Below, piece by piece: positions 410 to 9,195 of a DNA stretch of 9,374 nucleotides (the stretch's first letter is position 1; every line of letters starts with the position of its first letter). Source of the stretch: Actinomycetes bacterium. Lineage in GTDB: Bacteria; Actinomycetota; Acidimicrobiia; Acidimicrobiales; Bog-793. The notes beneath the pieces are model-generated. The model did no database searches. It was not told the origin of the DNA and worked only from the letters and a program-made list of their open reading frames with translations. Made by a program: the position numbers and the translations under genes. Where the stretch lies: the NCBI GenBank assembly GCA_021785095.1, contig JAJYGM010000307.1, positions 1 to 9,374 of the forward strand, given 5' to 3'.

Positions 410-2346
410 CGACGACGGACCCGCGCGCGCCGGAGCAGGAGCGGTTGGTACCCGGGGCCACCGCGCTCGAGGTGAGCACGCATGTGGCCGCGGCCAGCGC
501 GCTGGAGGCGGGGGCGGCGGCGCTGGTCGACCTCCAGCACGGGCGCGAGTGGTGGAAAGGCGAGCTCGAGACCAACGTCACCATGGACGCAGAGGACCTC
601 CTCCTCCGCCAATTCCTTGGTATCCGCACCCAAGCGGACACGGTCGGCGCGGCGGATTGGATCCGGTCCAACCAGCGCGCGGACGGGACCTGGGCCAACT
701 ACCTGGGCGGCCCGGGCGACCTGTCCACGACCATCGAAGCGTACGTGGCCCTCCGGCTCGCGGGCGACCAGCCGGACGCTGCGCACATGTCCGCCGCCCG
801 TGCGTTCATTCGCACACGAGGCGGGCTCGAGCAGGCCCGCGTGTTCACGAAGATGTGGCTCGCGCTCTTCGGGCAATGGTCGTGGGACGACCTGCCGGTG
901 CTGCCGCCCGAGCTGATGTTCTTCCCGCCATGGCTGCCGCTCAACATCTACGACTTCGGCTGCTGGGCCCGGCAGACCGTCGTCGCGCTCACGATCGTGA
1001 GCACCTACCGCCCGGTGCGAGACCTCGGCCTCGACGTCGCTGAGCTCCGCACGGGCCTGCCGCCGCTCCCCTCCCACCCGCTCTTCACCTGGGAGGGGGC
1101 TCTCGAGCGGGCAGACGCCCTCGCACGGCGCTACGCGCGCAGGCCGGTGCGCCCGCTGCGCGAGGCCGCTCTGCGCAAGGCGGAGCGCTGGATCGTCGAG
1201 CGCCAGGAGGCGGACGGCGGGTGGGGCGGGATCCAACCCCCCTGGGTGTACTCGATCATCGCGCTCCACCTGCGCGGCTACGCGCTCACACATGGGGTGC
1301 TCGCGGACGCCCTCGCCGGCCTCGAGGGGTTCATCGTGCGCGACGAGCGCGGCCGTCGGCTCGAGGCCTGCCAGTCGCCGGTGTGGGACACCGCACTCGC
1401 GGTCATCGCACTGGGCGACGCGGGGCTCTCCGCCGATCATCCCGTCCTGCGCGGCGCGGCGCGCTGGATGCTCGGTGAAGAGGTCACCGTCGACGGGGAC
1501 TGGAAGGTGCGCCGCCCCCGCCTCTCGCCGGGGGGATGGGCCTTCGAGTTCGCCAACGACCACTATCCCGACATCGACGACACGGCAGAGGTGGTGCTCG
1601 CGTTGCTGCGCTCCGCCGAGGACGACCACGGCGCCGTCGAGCGCGCCACCGAGTGGGTGCTCGGCATGCAATGCAGCGACGGCGGCTGGGCCGCGTTCGA
1701 CGTCGACAACACGCGAACGCTCTGCCGCAAGTTGCCGTTCTGCGATTTCGGAGAGCTCATCGACCCCCCGAGCGCCGACGTGACCGGGCACGTCGTCGAG
1801 ATGCTCGCCACCCTCCAGGCGGCAGGGCGTCGCACGGACCGCGCAGCGCTCGACCGCGGGGTCGCCTGGCTGATCGAGCACCAGGAGCCCGATGGCTCGT
1901 GGTTCGGCCGCTGGGGGGCGAACTACGTGTACGGGACGGGCGCGGTGCTCCCTGCGCTGGTGGCGGCCGGAGTGCCGCGGGCACACCCGGCGCTGCGTCG
2001 AGCAGTCGAGTGGCTCTGCGCCCACCAGAACGACGACGGCGGATGGGGCGAGGACCTCCGCTCGTACGACGAACCCGCCTGGGCGGGGAGGGGTGCGTCG
2101 ACCGCCTCGCAGACTGCGTGGGCGTTGCTCGCCCTGCTGGCTGCAGGCGAGGTCGGCCGACTCTCGACGCGCCGCGGCGTCGAGTTCCTCTGCGCCACGC
2201 AGCGCCCTGACGGGACGTGGGACGAGCCGTGGTTCACCGGCACCGGGTTTCCCGGCGACTTCTACATCAACTACCACCTGTACCGGCTCGTCTTCCCAGT
2301 CAGCGCGCTCGGCCGGTTCGTCCACGGAGGTGGACCGCATGAGTGA
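406..2346 (+). CDS. shc: Squalene-hopene cyclase
   Basis: 646 residues, the usual full length. The enzyme is a monotopic membrane-associated class II triterpene cyclase that turns squalene into hopene/hopanol by protonation. The catalytic acid motif DIDDTA is at residues 389-394, equivalent to DxDD of the Alicyclobacillus enzyme. Several QW repeats (QxxxGxW) are visible: QRADGTW, QEADGGW, QCSDGGW, QEPDGSW, QNDDGGW and QRPDGTW. Other family blocks are SPVWDTALA, GRGASTASQTAWALLALL and the C-terminal FYINYHLYRLVFP. The ATG at 406 is inside the stop of the prenyl synthase gene, and the end overlaps the next start by 8 bases. This is the core hopanoid enzyme and fixes the pathway assignment for the operon. 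I see no missing motif or truncation. Recognition is based on family motifs; hpnF is the alternative symbol. Confidence 0.97.
   Translation: MTTTDPRAPEQERLVPGATALEVSTHVAAASALEAGAAALVDLQHGREWWKGELETNVTMDAEDLLLRQFLGIRTQADTVGAADWIRSNQRADGTWANYLGGPGDLSTTIEAYVALRLAGDQPDAAHMSAARAFIRTRGGLEQARVFTKMWLALFGQWSWDDLPVLPPELMFFPPWLPLNIYDFGCWARQTVVALTIVSTYRPVRDLGLDVAELRTGLPPLPSHPLFTWEGALERADALARRYARRPVRPLREAALRKAERWIVERQEADGGWGGIQPPWVYSIIALHLRGYALTHGVLADALAGLEGFIVRDERGRRLEACQSPVWDTALAVIALGDAGLSADHPVLRGAARWMLGEEVTVDGDWKVRRPRLSPGGWAFEFANDHYPDIDDTAEVVLALLRSAEDDHGAVERATEWVLGMQCSDGGWAAFDVDNTRTLCRKLPFCDFGELIDPPSADVTGHVVEMLATLQAAGRRTDRAALDRGVAWLIEHQEPDGSWFGRWGANYVYGTGAVLPALVAAGVPRAHPALRRAVEWLCAHQNDDGGWGEDLRSYDEPAWAGRGASTASQTAWALLALLAAGEVGRLSTRRGVEFLCATQRPDGTWDEPWFTGTGFPGDFYINYHLYRLVFPVSALGRFVHGGGPHE
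2326..2330 (+). promoter_or_regulatory. Strong Shine-Dalgarno for the HpnG-IspH gene
   Basis: GGAGG lies 8 bases before the ATG at 2339, inside the last codons of shc. It is the best ribosome binding site at any junction in the operon and supports 2339 as the start, rather than the open frame that continues upstream as a shadow of shc. Confidence 0.75.
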
Positions 2347-3898
2347 CGACGTGATCGTGCTCGCGCCGACGCGCCGAGAGGCCCATGTCATCGGGACGCC
2401 GACGATCGTCACCGGAACCGGCGCCGCCTCGGTCGCCGATACCGTCGCCCGCCTCTTGCCCAGGCTCGCGCCGGGCACCGCTGTCGCCGTCACGGGCACC
2501 GCGGAGAGGCTTTGCCCCGATCTCGTACCGGGCCAGCTGGTGGTCGCCACCGAGCTGTGGGCGGCCGGCTCGGGAACGGCGCCGCGTCTCGTGCGGCGCC
2601 TCCCTTCCGCGTCGCTGCTCGCGGACGAGCTTCGCCGCGACGGCCACGTGGTCGCCGCGGGGCCGGTCGTCTCCACGAGCGAGGCATGCGGTGAGAGCCC
2701 CGGGGCTCCACTCGACTCCGGGGCCCGGCAGGGCGCCACAACAGCTCGACTCGACGTCCGGGGCGAGCTGGTGCAGCTCGGGGCGCTGGTCCTCGACCAC
2801 GACTCGGCGTGGGCTGCCGCGCTCGCCGAGCGCGACCGTCCGCTCGCCGTGGTGCGCGCCGTCGAGGACCTCCCTGGCCCCGGGGCGATGTCGGCGGTCG
2901 ACGCTCCGCGCGCCGCGGCGTCGCTCGCCGGGGTGAGAGGGACGATCGAGCGATGGGCGCGTGCCTGTCGGCGGCGGCGCGTCGTGCTCGCGTCGCCGCG
3001 ATCGTTCTGCGCCGGAGTGGAGCGGGCGATCGAGATCGTCGAGCGGGCGCTCGAGCGCTACGGGGCCCCTGTCTACGTCCGCCGCCAGATCGTCCACAAC
3101 ACGCACGTGGTCGGTCGGCTCGCCCAGATGGGTGCGGTGTTCGTCGAGGAGCTCGAGGAGGTCCCTGACGGCGCGACGGTGGTCCTCGCCGCCCATGGCG
3201 TCTCCCCCGGCGTCCGGGGCGAGGCCGAGATCCGTGAAGGTCTGAGAGTGATCGACGCGACGTGCCCTCTGGTCGCCAAGGTGCACCACGAGGCGCGGCG
3301 CTACGCGGCACGCGGGTACGAGATCGTCCTCGTCGGCCACGACGACCACGAGGAGGTGATCGGCACCTACGGTGAGGCCCCCGAACGGATGCACGTCGTG
3401 GCCACGACCGGAGACGTCGCCGACCTCGGCCTCGCGACCGACGCGCCGATCGCGTACCTCACGCAGACGACGCTCGCGACCGACGAGACCGCCGAGATCG
3501 TCGATGCGCTGCGCTCGAGGTTCCCCCAGCTCGTCGGACCGAGCGCCGAGGACATCTGCTACGCGACGCAAAACCGCCAGGACGCGGTGCGGGCGATCGC
3601 CCGCGACTGCGACCTCCTGCTCGTCGTCGGCTCGGCCAACTCGTCGAACACCGCGCGCCTCGTCGAGGTCGCCAGGCGGGAAGGCTGCCGTGCGGAGCTG
3701 GTGGAGGACGCCGGCCAGCTCCGTCTCTCGTGGCTCGACGGGGCGGCAACCGTCGGGGTGACCGCTGGTGCGTCCGCCCCCGAGTCCCTCGTCTCCGACG
3801 TGGTCCGGGCGTTGTCCGACCTCGGTTCGATCGACGTCGACGAACGCAGGATCACTTCAGAATCCGTCCGCTTCGCTCTCCCCCCACAGGTGCGCTGA
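2339..3898 (+). CDS. ispH: HpnG-like phosphorylase fused to HMBPP reductase (IspH)
   Basis: 519 residues with two domains. Residues 1 to about 200 look like the hopanoid-associated nucleoside phosphorylase HpnG: PGQLVVATEL, then GPVVST, then LDHDSAWAAAL at 152-162 in the place of the family's D-M-E-S motif. HpnG acts after HpnH by removing adenine from adenosylhopane. Residues from about 211 are a complete IspH, the 4Fe-4S enzyme that makes IPP/DMAPP in the last MEP step. It has three cluster cysteines C224 (PRSFCAGVERAI), C309 (DATCPLV) and C407 (ICYATQNRQDAV), plus IVHN, AAHGVS, HEEV with E339 in the catalytic Glu position, YLTQTTL, and SANSSN. No stop or frame change separates the domains. 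An internal ATG at 2888 (M184) could give IspH alone. The phosphorylase half is weakly conserved, with an insert of about 25 residues after GPVVST, so its activity is less certain than that of the IspH half. Confidence 0.88.
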   Translation: MSDDVIVLAPTRREAHVIGTPTIVTGTGAASVADTVARLLPRLAPGTAVAVTGTAERLCPDLVPGQLVVATELWAAGSGTAPRLVRRLPSASLLADELRRDGHVVAAGPVVSTSEACGESPGAPLDSGARQGATTARLDVRGELVQLGALVLDHDSAWAAALAERDRPLAVVRAVEDLPGPGAMSAVDAPRAAASLAGVRGTIERWARACRRRRVVLASPRSFCAGVERAIEIVERALERYGAPVYVRRQIVHNTHVVGRLAQMGAVFVEELEEVPDGATVVLAAHGVSPGVRGEAEIREGLRVIDATCPLVAKVHHEARRYAARGYEIVLVGHDDHEEVIGTYGEAPERMHVVATTGDVADLGLATDAPIAYLTQTTLATDETAEIVDALRSRFPQLVGPSAEDICYATQNRQDAVRAIARDCDLLLVVGSANSSNTARLVEVARREGCRAELVEDAGQLRLSWLDGAATVGVTAGASAPESLVSDVVRALSDLGSIDVDERRITSESVRFALPPQVR

Positions 3899-4902
3899 TG
3901 CCCATTCCCTTGAAGCAGAACTTGAAGATCGGTTCCCATCTCCTCCGGCAGCGGCTGATGGGCCGGAAGTACTACCCGTTGATCGTCGAGATCGAGCCCC
4001 TGTTCACGTGCAATCTCTCCTGCCCTGGCTGCGGGAAGATTCAGCATCCCACCGAGATCCTGCGCAAGAGGCTTTCAGTCGACGACGTGGTGAACGCCGT
4101 CGAGGAGAGCGGCACGCCGATGGTCTCGATCGCCGGCGGCGAGCCGCTCTTGCACCCGCAGATCTCCGAGATCGTCGAGGCCCTCGTGAAGCGCAAGGTC
4201 TACGTGTACCTCTGCACGAACGGGGTGCTCCTCGAGCGACGGCTCGACAAGTTCGCTCCGAGCGAGTACTTCTCGTTCGTGGTGCACATGGACGGGCTGC
4301 GGGAGCGCCACGATGCCGCGGTCGACCGCGAGGGGGTCTTCGACACCGCGGTCGAGGCGATCCGGAGCGCCAAGCGCCGGGGGTTCCGCGTGACGACCAA
4401 CTCGACGTTCTTCAACACCGACTCTCCGAAGACGGTACGCGACCTCCTCGACTTCTTGAACGACGAGCTCGAGGTCGACGCGATGATGATCTCCCCCGCG
4501 TACGCGTACGAGAAGGCCCCTGACCAGGAGCACTTCCTCGGAGTGGAGCAGACCACGAAGCTCTTCAAGGAGGCCTTCGCCGGCAGACGCAGGAAGTGGC
4601 GGCTGAACCACTCGCCCCTCTTCTTGGACTTCCTCGAGGGGAAGCGGGACTTCCAGTGCACCGCGTGGGGGATCCCGAGCTACTCGGTGCTCGGGTGGCA
4701 ACGACCCTGCTACCTCATGTCCGACGGGTACGTCTCGTCCTACAAGGAGCTCGTCGAAACGACCGACTGGTCGAAGTACGGCAGGGGGAGGGACCCCCGC
4801 TGCGCCAACTGCATGGCGCACTGCGGGTACGAGCCGTCGGCGGTGATCGCCTCGATGGGATCCTTGCGCGAGTCGTTGCGCGCGCTCGTCAACACCCACT
4901 GA
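3898..4902 (+). CDS. hpnH: Adenosylhopane synthase, radical SAM enzyme HpnH
   Basis: 334 residues, near full length for the family. HpnH joins the 5'-deoxyadenosyl radical from S-adenosylmethionine to the diploptene double bond, making adenosylhopane, the first step of bacteriohopanepolyol side chains. The N-terminus MPIPLKQ is typical of the family. The radical SAM cysteines are C38, C42 and C45 (FTCNLSCPGCGKIQHP), followed by the SAM-binding GGEPLLHP at 80-87. The C-terminal region has a second cysteine group: C254, C271, C302, C305 and C309 (CANCMAHC). The ATG shares one base with the preceding stop (TGATG). Only a weak AGG lies upstream, so translation is probably coupled. It sits next to the HpnG domain that would act on its product. 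The identification is firm from motifs and context. Confidence 0.95.
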   Translation: MPIPLKQNLKIGSHLLRQRLMGRKYYPLIVEIEPLFTCNLSCPGCGKIQHPTEILRKRLSVDDVVNAVEESGTPMVSIAGGEPLLHPQISEIVEALVKRKVYVYLCTNGVLLERRLDKFAPSEYFSFVVHMDGLRERHDAAVDREGVFDTAVEAIRSAKRRGFRVTTNSTFFNTDSPKTVRDLLDFLNDELEVDAMMISPAYAYEKAPDQEHFLGVEQTTKLFKEAFAGRRRKWRLNHSPLFLDFLEGKRDFQCTAWGIPSYSVLGWQRPCYLMSDGYVSSYKELVETTDWSKYGRGRDPRCANCMAHCGYEPSAVIASMGSLRESLRALVNTH

Positions 4903-4906
4903 CCCG

Positions 4907-6820
4907 GTGACCACGCTCCACGACATCGACGTGCACTCCGACGCGGTGGCCGCCGCCCCCGCCGCCCCCGCTGCGGCGAACGGCAACGGGCACGGCCTCG
5001 ACGCCGCGCGGGTGCCAGACCTCCTGCGGGACCTCACCCCGTCGCGGCTTCGCGCGATGGACCGGCCCGCGCTCGAGCGCCTCGCGGCGGAGATACGTCG
5101 ATTCCTCGTCGTCTCGTTGGCACGTACCGGAGGGCACCTCGGATCGAACCTCGGCGCAGTAGAGCTCTCGATCGCGCTCCACCGGGTCTTCGACTCCCCG
5201 GCAAACCCTATCGTGTGGGACACCGGCCACCAGGCGTACGTCCACAAGGTCCTGACCGGAAGGGCGGAGGGCTTCGCGCGGCTCCGGAGAGCTGGCGGCC
5301 TCTCCGGGTACCCGAACCGCGCGGAATCCGTGCACGACCTCGTCGAGAACAGCCACGCGTCGACTGCGCTCAGCTACGCCGACGGCCTCGCGCGCGCCCG
5401 CGACGCGCGCGGCGAGTGCCACCACGTCGTCGCTGTGGTCGGTGACGGCGCGCTGACCGGAGGGCTCGCCTACGAGGGCCTGAACAACATCGGGGTCGCA
5501 CACCGCCGCGTCCTCGTCGTCTTGAACGACAACGGGCGTTCGTATGCTCCTACGGTCTCCCCGCTCACGACGGCCGCTGGAGCCGGCAGCGCCGGCGCGC
5601 GGCAGTCAGCGCCGGGGTCGTCGGCGCCGTCCGCGTTCTTCGAGGCGCTGGGCTTCGCCTACATCGGCCCCGTCGACGGCCACGACCTCGACGCGCTCGA
5701 GGCCGCGCTCGGCCAGGCAGCTGCGTCCGCTGGCCCCGTCGTGGTGCACGTCCATACCGTGAAGGGCCGCGACTACGGACCCGCAGAGCGCGATGCCGAG
5801 AAGCGCCTCCACGACGTCTCCCCGTTCGACGCCGCGACCGGCCAGCCGCGGGTCCCCAAGGGCAGCGTGCCGACGTACACCGACGCCTTCGGGGTGGCGC
5901 TCGTCCGCGAGGCCGCCTCACGGCCCGAGCTCTTCGCGCTCACCGCCGCGATGACCGGGCCGACTGGCCTCATCCCCTTTGCCGAGCGCTACGGCGACAG
6001 GCTGGTCGACGTGGGGATCGCCGAGCAGCATGCCGTCGCCGCCGCCGCAGGGATGGCCATGGGCGGGCTGCGTCCGGTGGTCGCCGTGTACTCGACCTTC
6101 CTCAATCGCGCGTGGGACCAGGTGCTCCACGACGTGGGGCTCCACCACCTCCCGGTCGTGCTCTGCCTCGACCGCGCGGGGGTGACCGGTGACGACGGTC
6201 CGAGCCACCACGGGATCTTCGACCTCGCCCTGCTCACCAAGGTCCCCGGGATGACCGTGCTTGCGCCCTCGTCCTACGAGGAGGTGGGGGTCATGCTGCA
6301 CGACGCCCTCGAGCACACGGCAGGGCCAGTCGCGATCCGCTGGCCCAAGACGCCTGCCCGGCGGGCAGCTGAGACCGGCTCGGGACTCCGGGCCCGTCGG
6401 CTCACGGCCGGCGACGGCTCGGTCTGCCTCCTCGCAGTAGGCAAGCTCCTCGAGGCGTGCGAGCAGGCCGTCGAGCTGTTGGGCCGAGAGGGCGTGGCCG
6501 CGACCCTGTGGGACGTGCGGGTCGCGAGCCCCCTCGATCCCGAGATGCTCGCCGACGCGGGGTGCCACGCAGTGGTCGTGACGGCCGAGGACGGGATCGC
6601 ACCAGGAGGCGTCGGCTCGGCGGTCGCGGCCGCGCTGGTCGGCGCATCAGGCGATCCCTCGCGGCGCCCGGCCGTGGGCATCTGCGGCCTGCCGCTTGCG
6701 TACCTCCCCCACGCCACGCCGGACGAGATCCTCGCCGCGAACGGCCTCGACGCCGTCGGGATCGCGGGTACCGCGCGACGCCTGCTGCGTTCGGGCGGTG
6801 CCAGCCTGCAGACGCGGTAG
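4907..6820 (+). CDS. dxs: 1-deoxy-D-xylulose-5-phosphate synthase
   Basis: 637 residues. Dxs is the thiamin-diphosphate enzyme that condenses pyruvate and glyceraldehyde 3-phosphate, the first and flux-setting MEP step. Visible motifs are GGHLGSNLG, DTGHQAYVHK (D105, H108), the ThDP motif GDGALTGG to LNN (residues 179-194), GPVDGHDL, KGRDYGPAE, and GIAEQHAV with catalytic Glu at 373. The start is GTG, 4 bases after the hpnH stop, with no clear Shine-Dalgarno, which suggests coupling. There is an Ala/Pro-rich N-terminal extension (residues 12-30). The linker between NDNGRSYAPTV and FFEALGF (about residues 217-244) is Ala/Gly/Ser-rich and clearly shorter than in standard Dxs. Its place in the operon points to dedicated precursor supply for hopanoids; another dxs could exist elsewhere in the genome. 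Confidence 0.95.
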   Translation: MTTLHDIDVHSDAVAAAPAAPAAANGNGHGLDAARVPDLLRDLTPSRLRAMDRPALERLAAEIRRFLVVSLARTGGHLGSNLGAVELSIALHRVFDSPANPIVWDTGHQAYVHKVLTGRAEGFARLRRAGGLSGYPNRAESVHDLVENSHASTALSYADGLARARDARGECHHVVAVVGDGALTGGLAYEGLNNIGVAHRRVLVVLNDNGRSYAPTVSPLTTAAGAGSAGARQSAPGSSAPSAFFEALGFAYIGPVDGHDLDALEAALGQAAASAGPVVVHVHTVKGRDYGPAERDAEKRLHDVSPFDAATGQPRVPKGSVPTYTDAFGVALVREAASRPELFALTAAMTGPTGLIPFAERYGDRLVDVGIAEQHAVAAAAGMAMGGLRPVVAVYSTFLNRAWDQVLHDVGLHHLPVVLCLDRAGVTGDDGPSHHGIFDLALLTKVPGMTVLAPSSYEEVGVMLHDALEHTAGPVAIRWPKTPARRAAETGSGLRARRLTAGDGSVCLLAVGKLLEACEQAVELLGREGVAATLWDVRVASPLDPEMLADAGCHAVVVTAEDGIAPGGVGSAVAAALVGASGDPSRRPAVGICGLPLAYLPHATPDEILAANGLDAVGIAGTARRLLRSGGASLQTR

Positions 6821-6922: not shown

Positions 6923-7360
6923 GTGCTCGAAGGTGACGCGGCGGCCCTCACCGGCGTCTTCTTTCTGCCGGGCGCCGCGGTGCCGCCGGCTCTTCCGCAG
7001 ATCGTGCCGCCGCTGCTGGGCGTCGCCGCCGTGGAGCTCGAGGAGTACTTCTGCGGCACGCGCAGGTCGTTCTCGCTCCCTCTCGCGCCACGCGGGAGCG
7101 CCTTCCAGCTCGCGGTGTGGGAGGCGCTCGCCGACATCCCCTACGGCGCGACGACCACCTACGGCGACCTCGCCCGCCGCCTGGGTCGGCCCGCCGCGTC
7201 GCGGGCAGTCGGGCAGGCGGTCGGCGCCAACCCGCTGCCGATCGTCCTCGCGTGCCACCGGGTGGTCGCCGCGAACGGGAGGCTCGGGGGCTACGCGGGA
7301 GGAACCGGCACGAAGCGGCGCCTGCTCGCGTTGGAAGGCGCGGCGGTGGCCGCCCGCTGA
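6923..7360 (+). CDS. ogt: Methylated-DNA-protein cysteine methyltransferase (Ogt/MGMT type)
   Basis: This is a suicide DNA repair protein that moves the alkyl group from O6-alkylguanine to its own cysteine. Counted from the first standard start (GTG 6923) it has 145 residues. Starting near 6830 would give about 176, closer to the family's usual 160-180. Visible are GSAFQLAVWEAL, then IPYGATTTYGDLARRLG (recognition helix region), RAVGQAVGANPLPIV, and the active site ACHRVV with Cys111, followed by GGYAGGTGTKRRLLALEG. The residue before the active cysteine is Ala where most members have Pro (PCHR). It is in the same frame as dxs and may be co-transcribed, although a TAGCGT box overlapping the dxs stop could provide a separate promoter. 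The link to hopanoids is probably only positional. The start is unresolved. Confidence 0.88.
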   Translation: MLEGDAAALTGVFFLPGAAVPPALPQIVPPLLGVAAVELEEYFCGTRRSFSLPLAPRGSAFQLAVWEALADIPYGATTTYGDLARRLGRPAASRAVGQAVGANPLPIVLACHRVVAANGRLGGYAGGTGTKRRLLALEGAAVAAR

Positions 7361-7435: not shown

Positions 7436-8386
7436 GTGACCACCGTGGACAGGCACGTTCTTGGCGCCACCATCGAGGTCCGTGGGCTCACGAAGCGGTT
7501 CGGCTCCGTCACCGCGGTGGACGATCTCAGCTTCACGGTCGAGCCCGGACGCGTGACCGGGTTCCTCGGCCCGAACGGGGCGGGGAAGACCACGACGCTG
7601 CGGATCCTCCTCGACCTCGCGTCGGCAACGTCTGGGAGCTGCTCGATCGGCGGCCGCCGCTACCGTGACATCCCCGAGCCGGCTCGCCATGTTGGCGCGG
7701 TGCTCGAGGCGACGAACTTCCACCCGTCGCGGCGCGCCCGGGCACACCTCGAGATGCTGGCCATCGAGGCCGGGATCGACCTCTCGAGGATCGACCCGGT
7801 GCTCGAGCTCGTCGGGCTCACCGCCGACGCGAGGCGCAGGGTCGGCGGGTACTCGCTCGGCATGCGACAGCGGCTCCAGCTCGCAGGCGCACTGCTCGGC
7901 GACCCTGGCGTCCTCGTTCTCGACGAGCCGACCAACGGTCTCGACCCCCAGGGGATCGCGTGGGTACGCGACCTGCTCCGCCACCTGTCGTCCGAGGGAC
8001 GCACGGTGCTCGTTTCGTCTCACTTGCTCGCCGAGATGGCCCAGACGGTCGACGACGTGGTGATCGTGTCAGGGGGACGGCTACGGGCGCAGGGTCCCCT
8101 CTCCCTGCTCACGAGCCAGTCGCGGTCGTCGATGCGCGTGCGGACCCCCGAGCGCGACCGGCTGGCGGCGCTCGCCCACGCCGCCGGGTACACGCCCCGG
8201 CAGCTCGGAGAAGACGCACTCATGATCGACGGCGCGACCCCCGAGGGACTCGGACCGCTGATCGCGTCCAATGGCGTCGTCGTCTACGAGCTCGTCCAGG
8301 TGAGCCAGGACCTCGAGAGCCTCTTCCTCGAGCTCACCACATCGATGACCACCCGCGGGGCGCCCGCCGCGGTGGGGGCACGATGA
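7436..8386 (+). CDS. ABC transporter ATP-binding protein (ABC-2 exporter type)
   Basis: 316 residues, the normal size for DrrA/CcmA-like ATPases of two-gene exporters. Walker A is GPNGAGKTT at 45-53. The signature is YSLGMRQRL (S140 onward), a common replacement for LSGGQ in this subfamily. Walker B is VLVLDEP with D163/E164, then GLDP, and the switch His is H196 (SSHLL). The Q-loop region reads GAVLEATNFHPSR with Glu in place of Gln, as often seen in this group. The C-terminal 90 residues are the usual accessory domain of the subfamily. The GTG start is supported by the TAGCGT box just upstream. The stop overlaps the permease start (ATGA), so the two form a transporter. The substrate is unknown; drug or lipid export are family-level possibilities only. 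Confidence 0.93.
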   Translation: MTTVDRHVLGATIEVRGLTKRFGSVTAVDDLSFTVEPGRVTGFLGPNGAGKTTTLRILLDLASATSGSCSIGGRRYRDIPEPARHVGAVLEATNFHPSRRARAHLEMLAIEAGIDLSRIDPVLELVGLTADARRRVGGYSLGMRQRLQLAGALLGDPGVLVLDEPTNGLDPQGIAWVRDLLRHLSSEGRTVLVSSHLLAEMAQTVDDVVIVSGGRLRAQGPLSLLTSQSRSSMRVRTPERDRLAALAHAAGYTPRQLGEDALMIDGATPEGLGPLIASNGVVVYELVQVSQDLESLFLELTTSMTTRGAPAAVGAR

Positions 8387-9195
8387 CGCTCTCTCCTCGG
8401 CTGATCCGCGCGGAGCTCTTCAAGTTCCGCACCACGCCCGGGGCCTGGGTGTGCATCGCGGTCGTCCTGCTGCTCACGGGACTCGACATCACGACGTCGT
8501 TCATCAACGGGAGCCAGGGCGTGGTGCACTTCTCGGCTCCGACGACCACCACAGGCCTGCGCCGCCTCATGGGGGCGGGCTACACGGCGGCGATCGTGAT
8601 GGCGCCCGTCCTCGGGGTCCTGTCCATCACCACCGAGTACCGCCACCGCGTGCTCACCTCGACCCTCTTGGCTCACCCGCGCCGTGCGGACGTGCTCAGC
8701 GCGAAGGTGCTCGCCTCGGCGCTGTGGGCGCTCTTCATGGGCGTCGCGTCGTTCGTGATGATCGGCGCCATGGGCATCCCCCTCCTCCTCGCCGAGGGGG
8801 GCTCGGTGTCGGCGCTGCTCCATCAGGTCGGCCCCGTCCTGCCCGGCATGCTCGCGGCCTACATCCTGCTCGCCGTCTACGGCATGGGGATCGGCACCCT
8901 CGTGCGCAACCAGATCGCCGGTGTGATCCTCGCGATCGGGCTCACCCTGGTCCTCGAGCCGATCATCGTGGCGATCTTCAGCTCGCTCGCGCACATGGAC
9001 GTGAACTTCCTGCCGACACGGGCGACGCAGGCGATCGCAGGAGGGGTGGCGGCGCGAGGGCCGGGAGGCGCCAGCGCCGCGGCGACAGCCCACGTCCTCC
9101 TCAGCTGGTGGCTTGGAGCGGTGGCCCTCGTCGTCTGGGGCGTCGGCACCGCGATGGTCGGCTACTTCACGACGTTCCGCCGCGACGTCACCTAG
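8383..9195 (+). CDS. ABC-2 type transporter permease
   Basis: 270 residues with six hydrophobic segments at about 21-38, 66-84, 107-137, 152-173, 177-201 and 236-262, the usual layout for an ABC-2 membrane subunit. The N-terminal RLIRAELFKFRTTPGAW is the amphipathic stretch typical of actinobacterial members. ITTEYRHRVLTSTLLAHPRR between segments 2 and 3 is a conserved block in the family. The ATG overlaps the ATPase stop by 4 bases, with a G-rich stretch (8371-8378) as a loose Shine-Dalgarno. It forms the membrane channel for the ATPase encoded just before it. There is no further + strand gene after it in the window. The substrate cannot be inferred. Confidence 0.92.
   Translation: MTLSPRLIRAELFKFRTTPGAWVCIAVVLLLTGLDITTSFINGSQGVVHFSAPTTTTGLRRLMGAGYTAAIVMAPVLGVLSITTEYRHRVLTSTLLAHPRRADVLSAKVLASALWALFMGVASFVMIGAMGIPLLLAEGGSVSALLHQVGPVLPGMLAAYILLAVYGMGIGTLVRNQIAGVILAIGLTLVLEPIIVAIFSSLAHMDVNFLPTRATQAIAGGVAARGPGGASAAATAHVLLSWWLGAVALVVWGVGTAMVGYFTTFRRDVT

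Follow-up and report, generated by a model that had tools for sequence, protein, structure and literature searches.

The window, i.e., the whole stretch of 9,374 nucleotides that was analysed, contains a hopanoid operon in which a single reading frame (2339–3898) encodes a protein with a phosphorylase-fold N-terminal half (N-half) and a complete IspH. This frame is flanked by the genes of squalene-hopene cyclase (shc) and HpnH. The features are as follows:

406–2346, + strand: shc, squalene-hopene cyclase (TIGR01507, 740 bits; cut-off 431.1)
2339–3898, + strand: fused gene, 519 aa, a phosphorylase-fold domain of the HpnG-like clade and IspH
2339–2959, + strand: N-half, approximately residues 1–207, predicted nucleoside phosphorylase/MTAN fold with a degenerate motif
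2792–2806, + strand: LDHDS, residues 152–156, corresponding in the motif alignment to (V)DMES of intact relatives
2861–2872, + strand: VEDL, residues 175–178, position of the general-acid Asp, which is retained in the window protein
2975–3895, + strand: IspH half, residues 213–519, with Cys224, Cys309, and Cys407 aligned with the cysteines of E. coli IspH
3898–4902, + strand: HpnH, adenosyl-hopene transferase, radical SAM (TIGR03470, 516 bits; cut-off 225.05)
4907–6820, + strand: Dxs, 1-deoxy-D-xylulose-5-phosphate synthase (TIGR00204, 552.5 bits; cut-off 465.95)

The shc stop and the start of the fused gene overlap by eight bases, and the hpnH ATG overlaps the stop of the fused gene (TGATG); for the hpnH profile scans, the first base was set at 3895. 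The dxs gene is an additional MEP gene within the operon. An open frame at 74–409 ends just inside the shc start; by eye, it resembles the C-terminal part of a polyprenyl diphosphate synthase and is possibly cut by the window start. A methylated-DNA-protein cysteine methyltransferase (6923–7360; PF01035, 117 bits) is encoded 3′ of dxs, and an ABC transporter ATPase with an ABC-2 type permease (7436–9195) is found downstream of the operon.

The IspH half scores far above the thresholds of both of its profiles (TIGR00216, 316.9 vs. 187.85; PF02401, 312.9 vs. 24.5). In addition to the three cysteines of the [Fe-S] cluster, the His, Thr, Ser, and Asn blocks of the conserved active site align with E. 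coli IspH. The window protein differs from IspH/LytB proteins (TIGR00216; E. coli structures) in having some 207 additional residues as an N-terminal domain and in its hopanoid operon setting.

The N-half matches the nucleoside phosphorylase/MTAN fold, which is predicted for it with high confidence. It shares this fold and the gene place beside shc and hpnH with HpnG (TIGR03468); however, no TIGR03468 match was found for the window protein at E ≤ 1, and the profile libraries searched gave no phosphorylase match. Intact fused and Streptomyces-type relatives are also below the TIGR03468 cut-off of 187.1 (43–78 bits; up to 95.5). Two proteins of the same type as the window protein match PF01048: P0014, which has 72% identity with it and carries DHDS, passes the cut-off (27.9 vs. 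25.1), and P0021 is the second. The earlier note, which described an HpnG-like phosphorylase fused to a complete IspH, is supported in this respect: the domain belongs to the HpnG-like clade, and the gene lies in a hopanoid operon. Relatives from separate MAGs have the same join, which rules out an assembly error or a frameshift at the junction.

Distribution of the fused gene

A search with the window protein yielded 524 loci. Among the best 80 of them, which were examined, the shc-[NP-IspH]-hpnH synteny (NP, phosphorylase half) was observed in 21, one (L019) contains only a relic of the N-half, and the remaining 58 have no fused frame. L019 is counted as fused in the locus, motif, and IspH-tree tallies, though it is a relic. 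The fused loci come from MAGs of Acidimicrobiaceae and other Actinomycetota and from the genera Desertimonas, Parafrankia, Pseudofrankia, Amycolatopsis, Thermomonospora, Actinomadura, Pseudonocardia, Actinomycetospora, and Flexivirga. Two suspected second fusions, L284 and L285, were rejected, having neither an IspH nor an NP-profile match. The Parafrankia genome G012 (L189, L012) has two HpnH places, one of them apart from the fused cluster.

A class-wide HpnH search with a loose E-value matched 148 of 198 genomes, only five of them over the cut-off, and stricter searches were therefore used afterwards. In the family of the closest relative, HpnH is present in 34 of 172 genomes; of the 33 HpnH-bearing loci read, 32 carry the fusion, flanked by shc and hpnH, and the remaining one is truncated at the end of its contig. 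Sampling the phylum evenly gave 33 HpnH-bearing genomes among 396, for which 32 loci were read (the loci read in the two surveys exclude G258 and G496). Five of these have the fusion; in eleven, a phosphorylase encoded on its own separates shc from hpnH, with no IspH in the stretch (Streptomyces-type); one, G140, has an IspH without the N-half in this place (L190:5050–5958); and fifteen show other arrangements, some of which include a stand-alone phosphorylase. One stand-alone protein of the Streptomyces type (L177) matches Streptomyces proteins at up to 95%. Some actinobacterial groups carry the fusion as a rule, and others lack it. The earlier note regarded it as an unusual architecture, which is not supported, given that it is the standard form in the closest relative's family and is present in several other actinobacterial orders; a standard form across a wide group had been named in that note as a refutation.

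Of the 37 HpnH-bearing genomes searched, 34 have two or more IspH places, some of which are fragments (22 of 24 in an earlier genome set). Among the family genomes with a degenerate fusion, 9 of 12 have a second ispH; in G001, G003, and G268, all three of which are drafts, the fused ispH is the only one seen. Since a second ispH is usual in relatives, the fused IspH would not alone fix the precursor supply.

State and history of the phosphorylase half

The DME motif is absent from the window protein, which has DHD instead, and the later Asp is retained. An acidic residue is thus found at both positions: Asp155 in place of Glu, and Asp177. The corresponding residues of E. coli MTAN, Met173-Glu174 and Asp197, belong to the nucleoside pocket, Asp197 being the general acid; the E. 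coli numbering was checked, and the equivalence for the window protein comes from the motif alignment. Among 54 fused rows, 34 carry DME, four DTE, and one EMES (L007); one is the relic L019, and fourteen, including the window protein, have neither Met nor Glu (DHD, DHQ, DHA, DDD, DYD, DRD, DRH, or DSD). The general-acid Asp is kept in five of these fourteen rows, the window protein among them, and not in the other nine. The other fused proteins have the same architecture, synteny, and clade as the window protein; however, the 39 rows outside the degenerate clade (a tally that omits L019) keep the Glu, unlike the window protein. No stop codons were found in the 23 NP stretches checked.

Selective constraint was compared by NG86 dN/dS in 14 chosen pairs of 23 fused genes, the low-dS pairs overlapping in members. 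For six pairs of close relatives within the degenerate clade, none of which includes the window gene, dN/dS is 0.33–0.93 for the NP stretch versus 0.06–0.26 for IspH, with NP ratios reaching 0.84–0.93 in one sub-clade. Five intact pairs gave 0.07–0.29 for NP versus 0.09–0.23 for IspH, and in one of them (L169/L171) NP is above IspH too (0.29 vs. 0.09). The ratio is not raised in the three pairs that include the window gene (0.20–0.24 for NP versus 0.18–0.24 for IspH); NP dN is about twice the IspH dN in these pairs, and NP dS is higher as well. Relaxed constraint on the N-half is visible in sister branches, and the window's own branch gives no dN/dS signal.

In a quick NP tree, which leaves out six of the seven ‘WK’ rows and many fused rows, the fused, degenerate, and Streptomyces-type stand-alone proteins form one clade (SH-aLRT 99), within which the degenerate members form a single clade (90). 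In a quick, midpoint-rooted IspH tree, for which 88 rows were selected from the loci, the fused IspHs form one group (92) with a number of IspHs that lack the N-half, apart from the other actinobacterial IspHs. This group includes 14 rows without the N-half, one of which is the relic-bearing L028, and the relic L019; L147 is scored as stand-alone in this tree, although its contig breaks off immediately before IspH. When the 230 residues upstream of 70 IspHs outside hopanoid clusters were searched for NP, four matches at E ≤ 1 were obtained. NP relics are present in Microtetraspora (L019, 24.5 bits), Saccharopolyspora spinosa (L028, 17.2 bits), and Streptomonospora (L018, 8.1 bits); the match of L067 (5.5 bits) was not counted as a relic. 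The nesting of these IspHs in the fused group, together with the relics upstream, favours an old fusion followed by repeated loss of the N-half. The Streptomyces lineage may have diverged before the fusion arose or may have lost the IspH half afterwards, and the tree fits either order of events.

Fate of the adenine-removal step

The account that we consider probable is that of an ancient hopanoid-operon fusion in which IspH stays as a pathway-dedicated second copy and the phosphorylase half decays. An HpnG-type phosphorylase and IspH would have been fused early in Actinobacteria, in hopanoid operons with shc and hpnH on either side. The IspH half, together with the neighbouring dxs, would provide a dedicated second last step of the MEP pathway, another IspH usually being encoded elsewhere in relatives. 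Where the N-half is intact, it would act after HpnH and release adenine from adenosylhopane, which is the role proposed for HpnG (PMC12583986). In the lineage of the window, the N-half would keep its fold but decay, remaining a folded extension of an IspH that still works. With Met and Glu missing from the nucleoside pocket and the domain in decay, the window N-half probably has little or no phosphorylase activity; the acidic residues at both positions make some activity possible. We infer the catalytic loss of the N-half, the IspH activity, and the pathway dedication from the sequences compared. What is new here is the likely decay of the phosphorylase half, the architecture itself being ordinary in several groups of hopanoid-making actinobacteria. 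An apparent metabolic-coupling fusion would thus be an old and widespread one, probably half-decayed in the window's branch, which corrects a likely misreading.

The HpnG step might have moved to an unlinked stand-alone protein, H2, freeing the fused half to decay; we consider this unlikely, despite a suggestive distribution. H2 is a predicted HpnG-like nucleosidase family of Acidimicrobiaceae relatives (e.g., L143:7786–8499 and its homologues in alignment A1), called at over 100 bits to A1. It was found in all 12 family genomes with a degenerate fusion, in G009 (also degenerate), and in G140, where the N-half is lacking, and in none of the 18 DME-intact genomes of the family. G228, whose fused protein carries DTES and adjoins the degenerate clade, has both genes, as expected of an intermediate. 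Family-wide, H2 is present in 14 of the 34 HpnH-bearing genomes versus 12 of the 138 others. The DME triplet is conserved in each of the 15 H2 rows of A1, as is the later Asp, and H2 forms its own clade (98) in the NP tree, separate from E. coli MTAN. However, 12 of the 26 H2-bearing family genomes have no HpnH match, and 11 of these 12 have no SHC match either, which argues against a hopanoid-specific role and weakens a simple replacement of HpnG by H2. No match to shc, hpnH, dxs, or the fused gene was detected in the 16 H2 loci read (4–17 kb), and the best H2 score against the HpnG profile is 94.6, far under the cut-off of 187.1. Moreover, because of shared ancestry, the co-occurrence may equal about two independent events, the degenerate clade and G140. 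Being present without HpnH and SHC matches and without hopanoid genes nearby, H2 is probably a nucleosidase of general function; at most, it might substitute at this step. By eye, a TetR-like gene adjoins H2 in several loci. Weak TIGR03468 matches in intact genomes gave no H2 match at 1e-4 within the stretches read; that of G265 matches E. coli MTAN at 100.7 bits.

The earlier note suggested that the fusion couples precursor production to product maturation at a fixed 1:1 ratio. An enzyme with both activities, in which HMBPP reduction and the deadenylation of adenosylhopane are coupled in this way, is compatible with the fusion and its synteny, and it may well exist in the 34 DME-intact rows. 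As for the window protein, both acids are chemically kept as Asp, dN/dS is not raised in its three pairs, and P0014 and P0021 match PF01048; these points still speak for coupling. Nevertheless, the idea is weakened by the absence of DME from the window's whole clade and of the general-acid Asp from most of its rows, by the missing library match, by the weaker constraint in the six sister-branch pairs, by the second ispH of most relatives, and by the loss of the N-half elsewhere, and we hold such an enzyme to be rather improbable here. Re-use of the N-half as a non-catalytic sensor of an adenine or adenosyl ligand, or as an assembly scaffold tuning IspH, agrees with the predicted fold, the stop-free stretches, and the ratios of the window pairs, but it is very doubtful, as the pocket motif varies (DHDS, DHQS, DHAS, DYDS, DRDS, DRHS, DDDS, DSDS), unlike a conserved new ligand site, and NP dN/dS approaches one in one sub-clade.

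It could be supposed, with considerable doubt, that in the Acidimicrobiaceae-like lineage the fused HpnG is now a pseudo-phosphorylase attached to a hopanoid-dedicated IspH, and that the cells have adenosylhopane, or a different nucleoside hopanoid, as their end product or else rely for this step on an adenine nucleosidase that is not linked to the operon. Uncultured actinobacteria of the window's lineage would then be a source of adenosylhopanes, which serve geochemists as soil markers. The assignment of hpnG by synteny might mispredict ordinary bacteriohopanepolyols in this lineage, which is relevant to the use of hopanoids as biomarkers.

Names and precedents

The earlier note stated that stand-alone phosphorylases of Streptomyces clusters often have an IspH-like product name, and this was confirmed. 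Among the best 120 of the 2365 matches to a Streptomyces-type stand-alone protein, a count by eye gave 52 with the NCBI name ‘1-hydroxy-2-methyl-2-butenyl 4-diphosphate reductase’, though they carry only PF01048. It is plausible that this name derives from the fused proteins; the fusion would then offer a source for the IspH naming of stand-alone Streptomyces HpnG, which is still found in public databases.

No description of an HpnG-IspH fusion was found in the literature searched, as judged from titles, the openings of abstracts, and passages, among them passages of PMC5462960, PMC12583986, PMC7987185, and PMC8079986, most subscription papers being outside its scope. A precedent for IspH fusions is the IspH-ribosomal protein S1 protein (NF000907), in which IspH is likewise joined to a second protein; however, the partner is different and is placed behind IspH, and the window protein scores 237 bits against this model versus the 624 needed. 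Hopanoid-pathway genes are also fused in some Acidobacteria, in which HpnC is joined to HpnD; these are other genes, which belong to squalene synthesis (PMC5462960).
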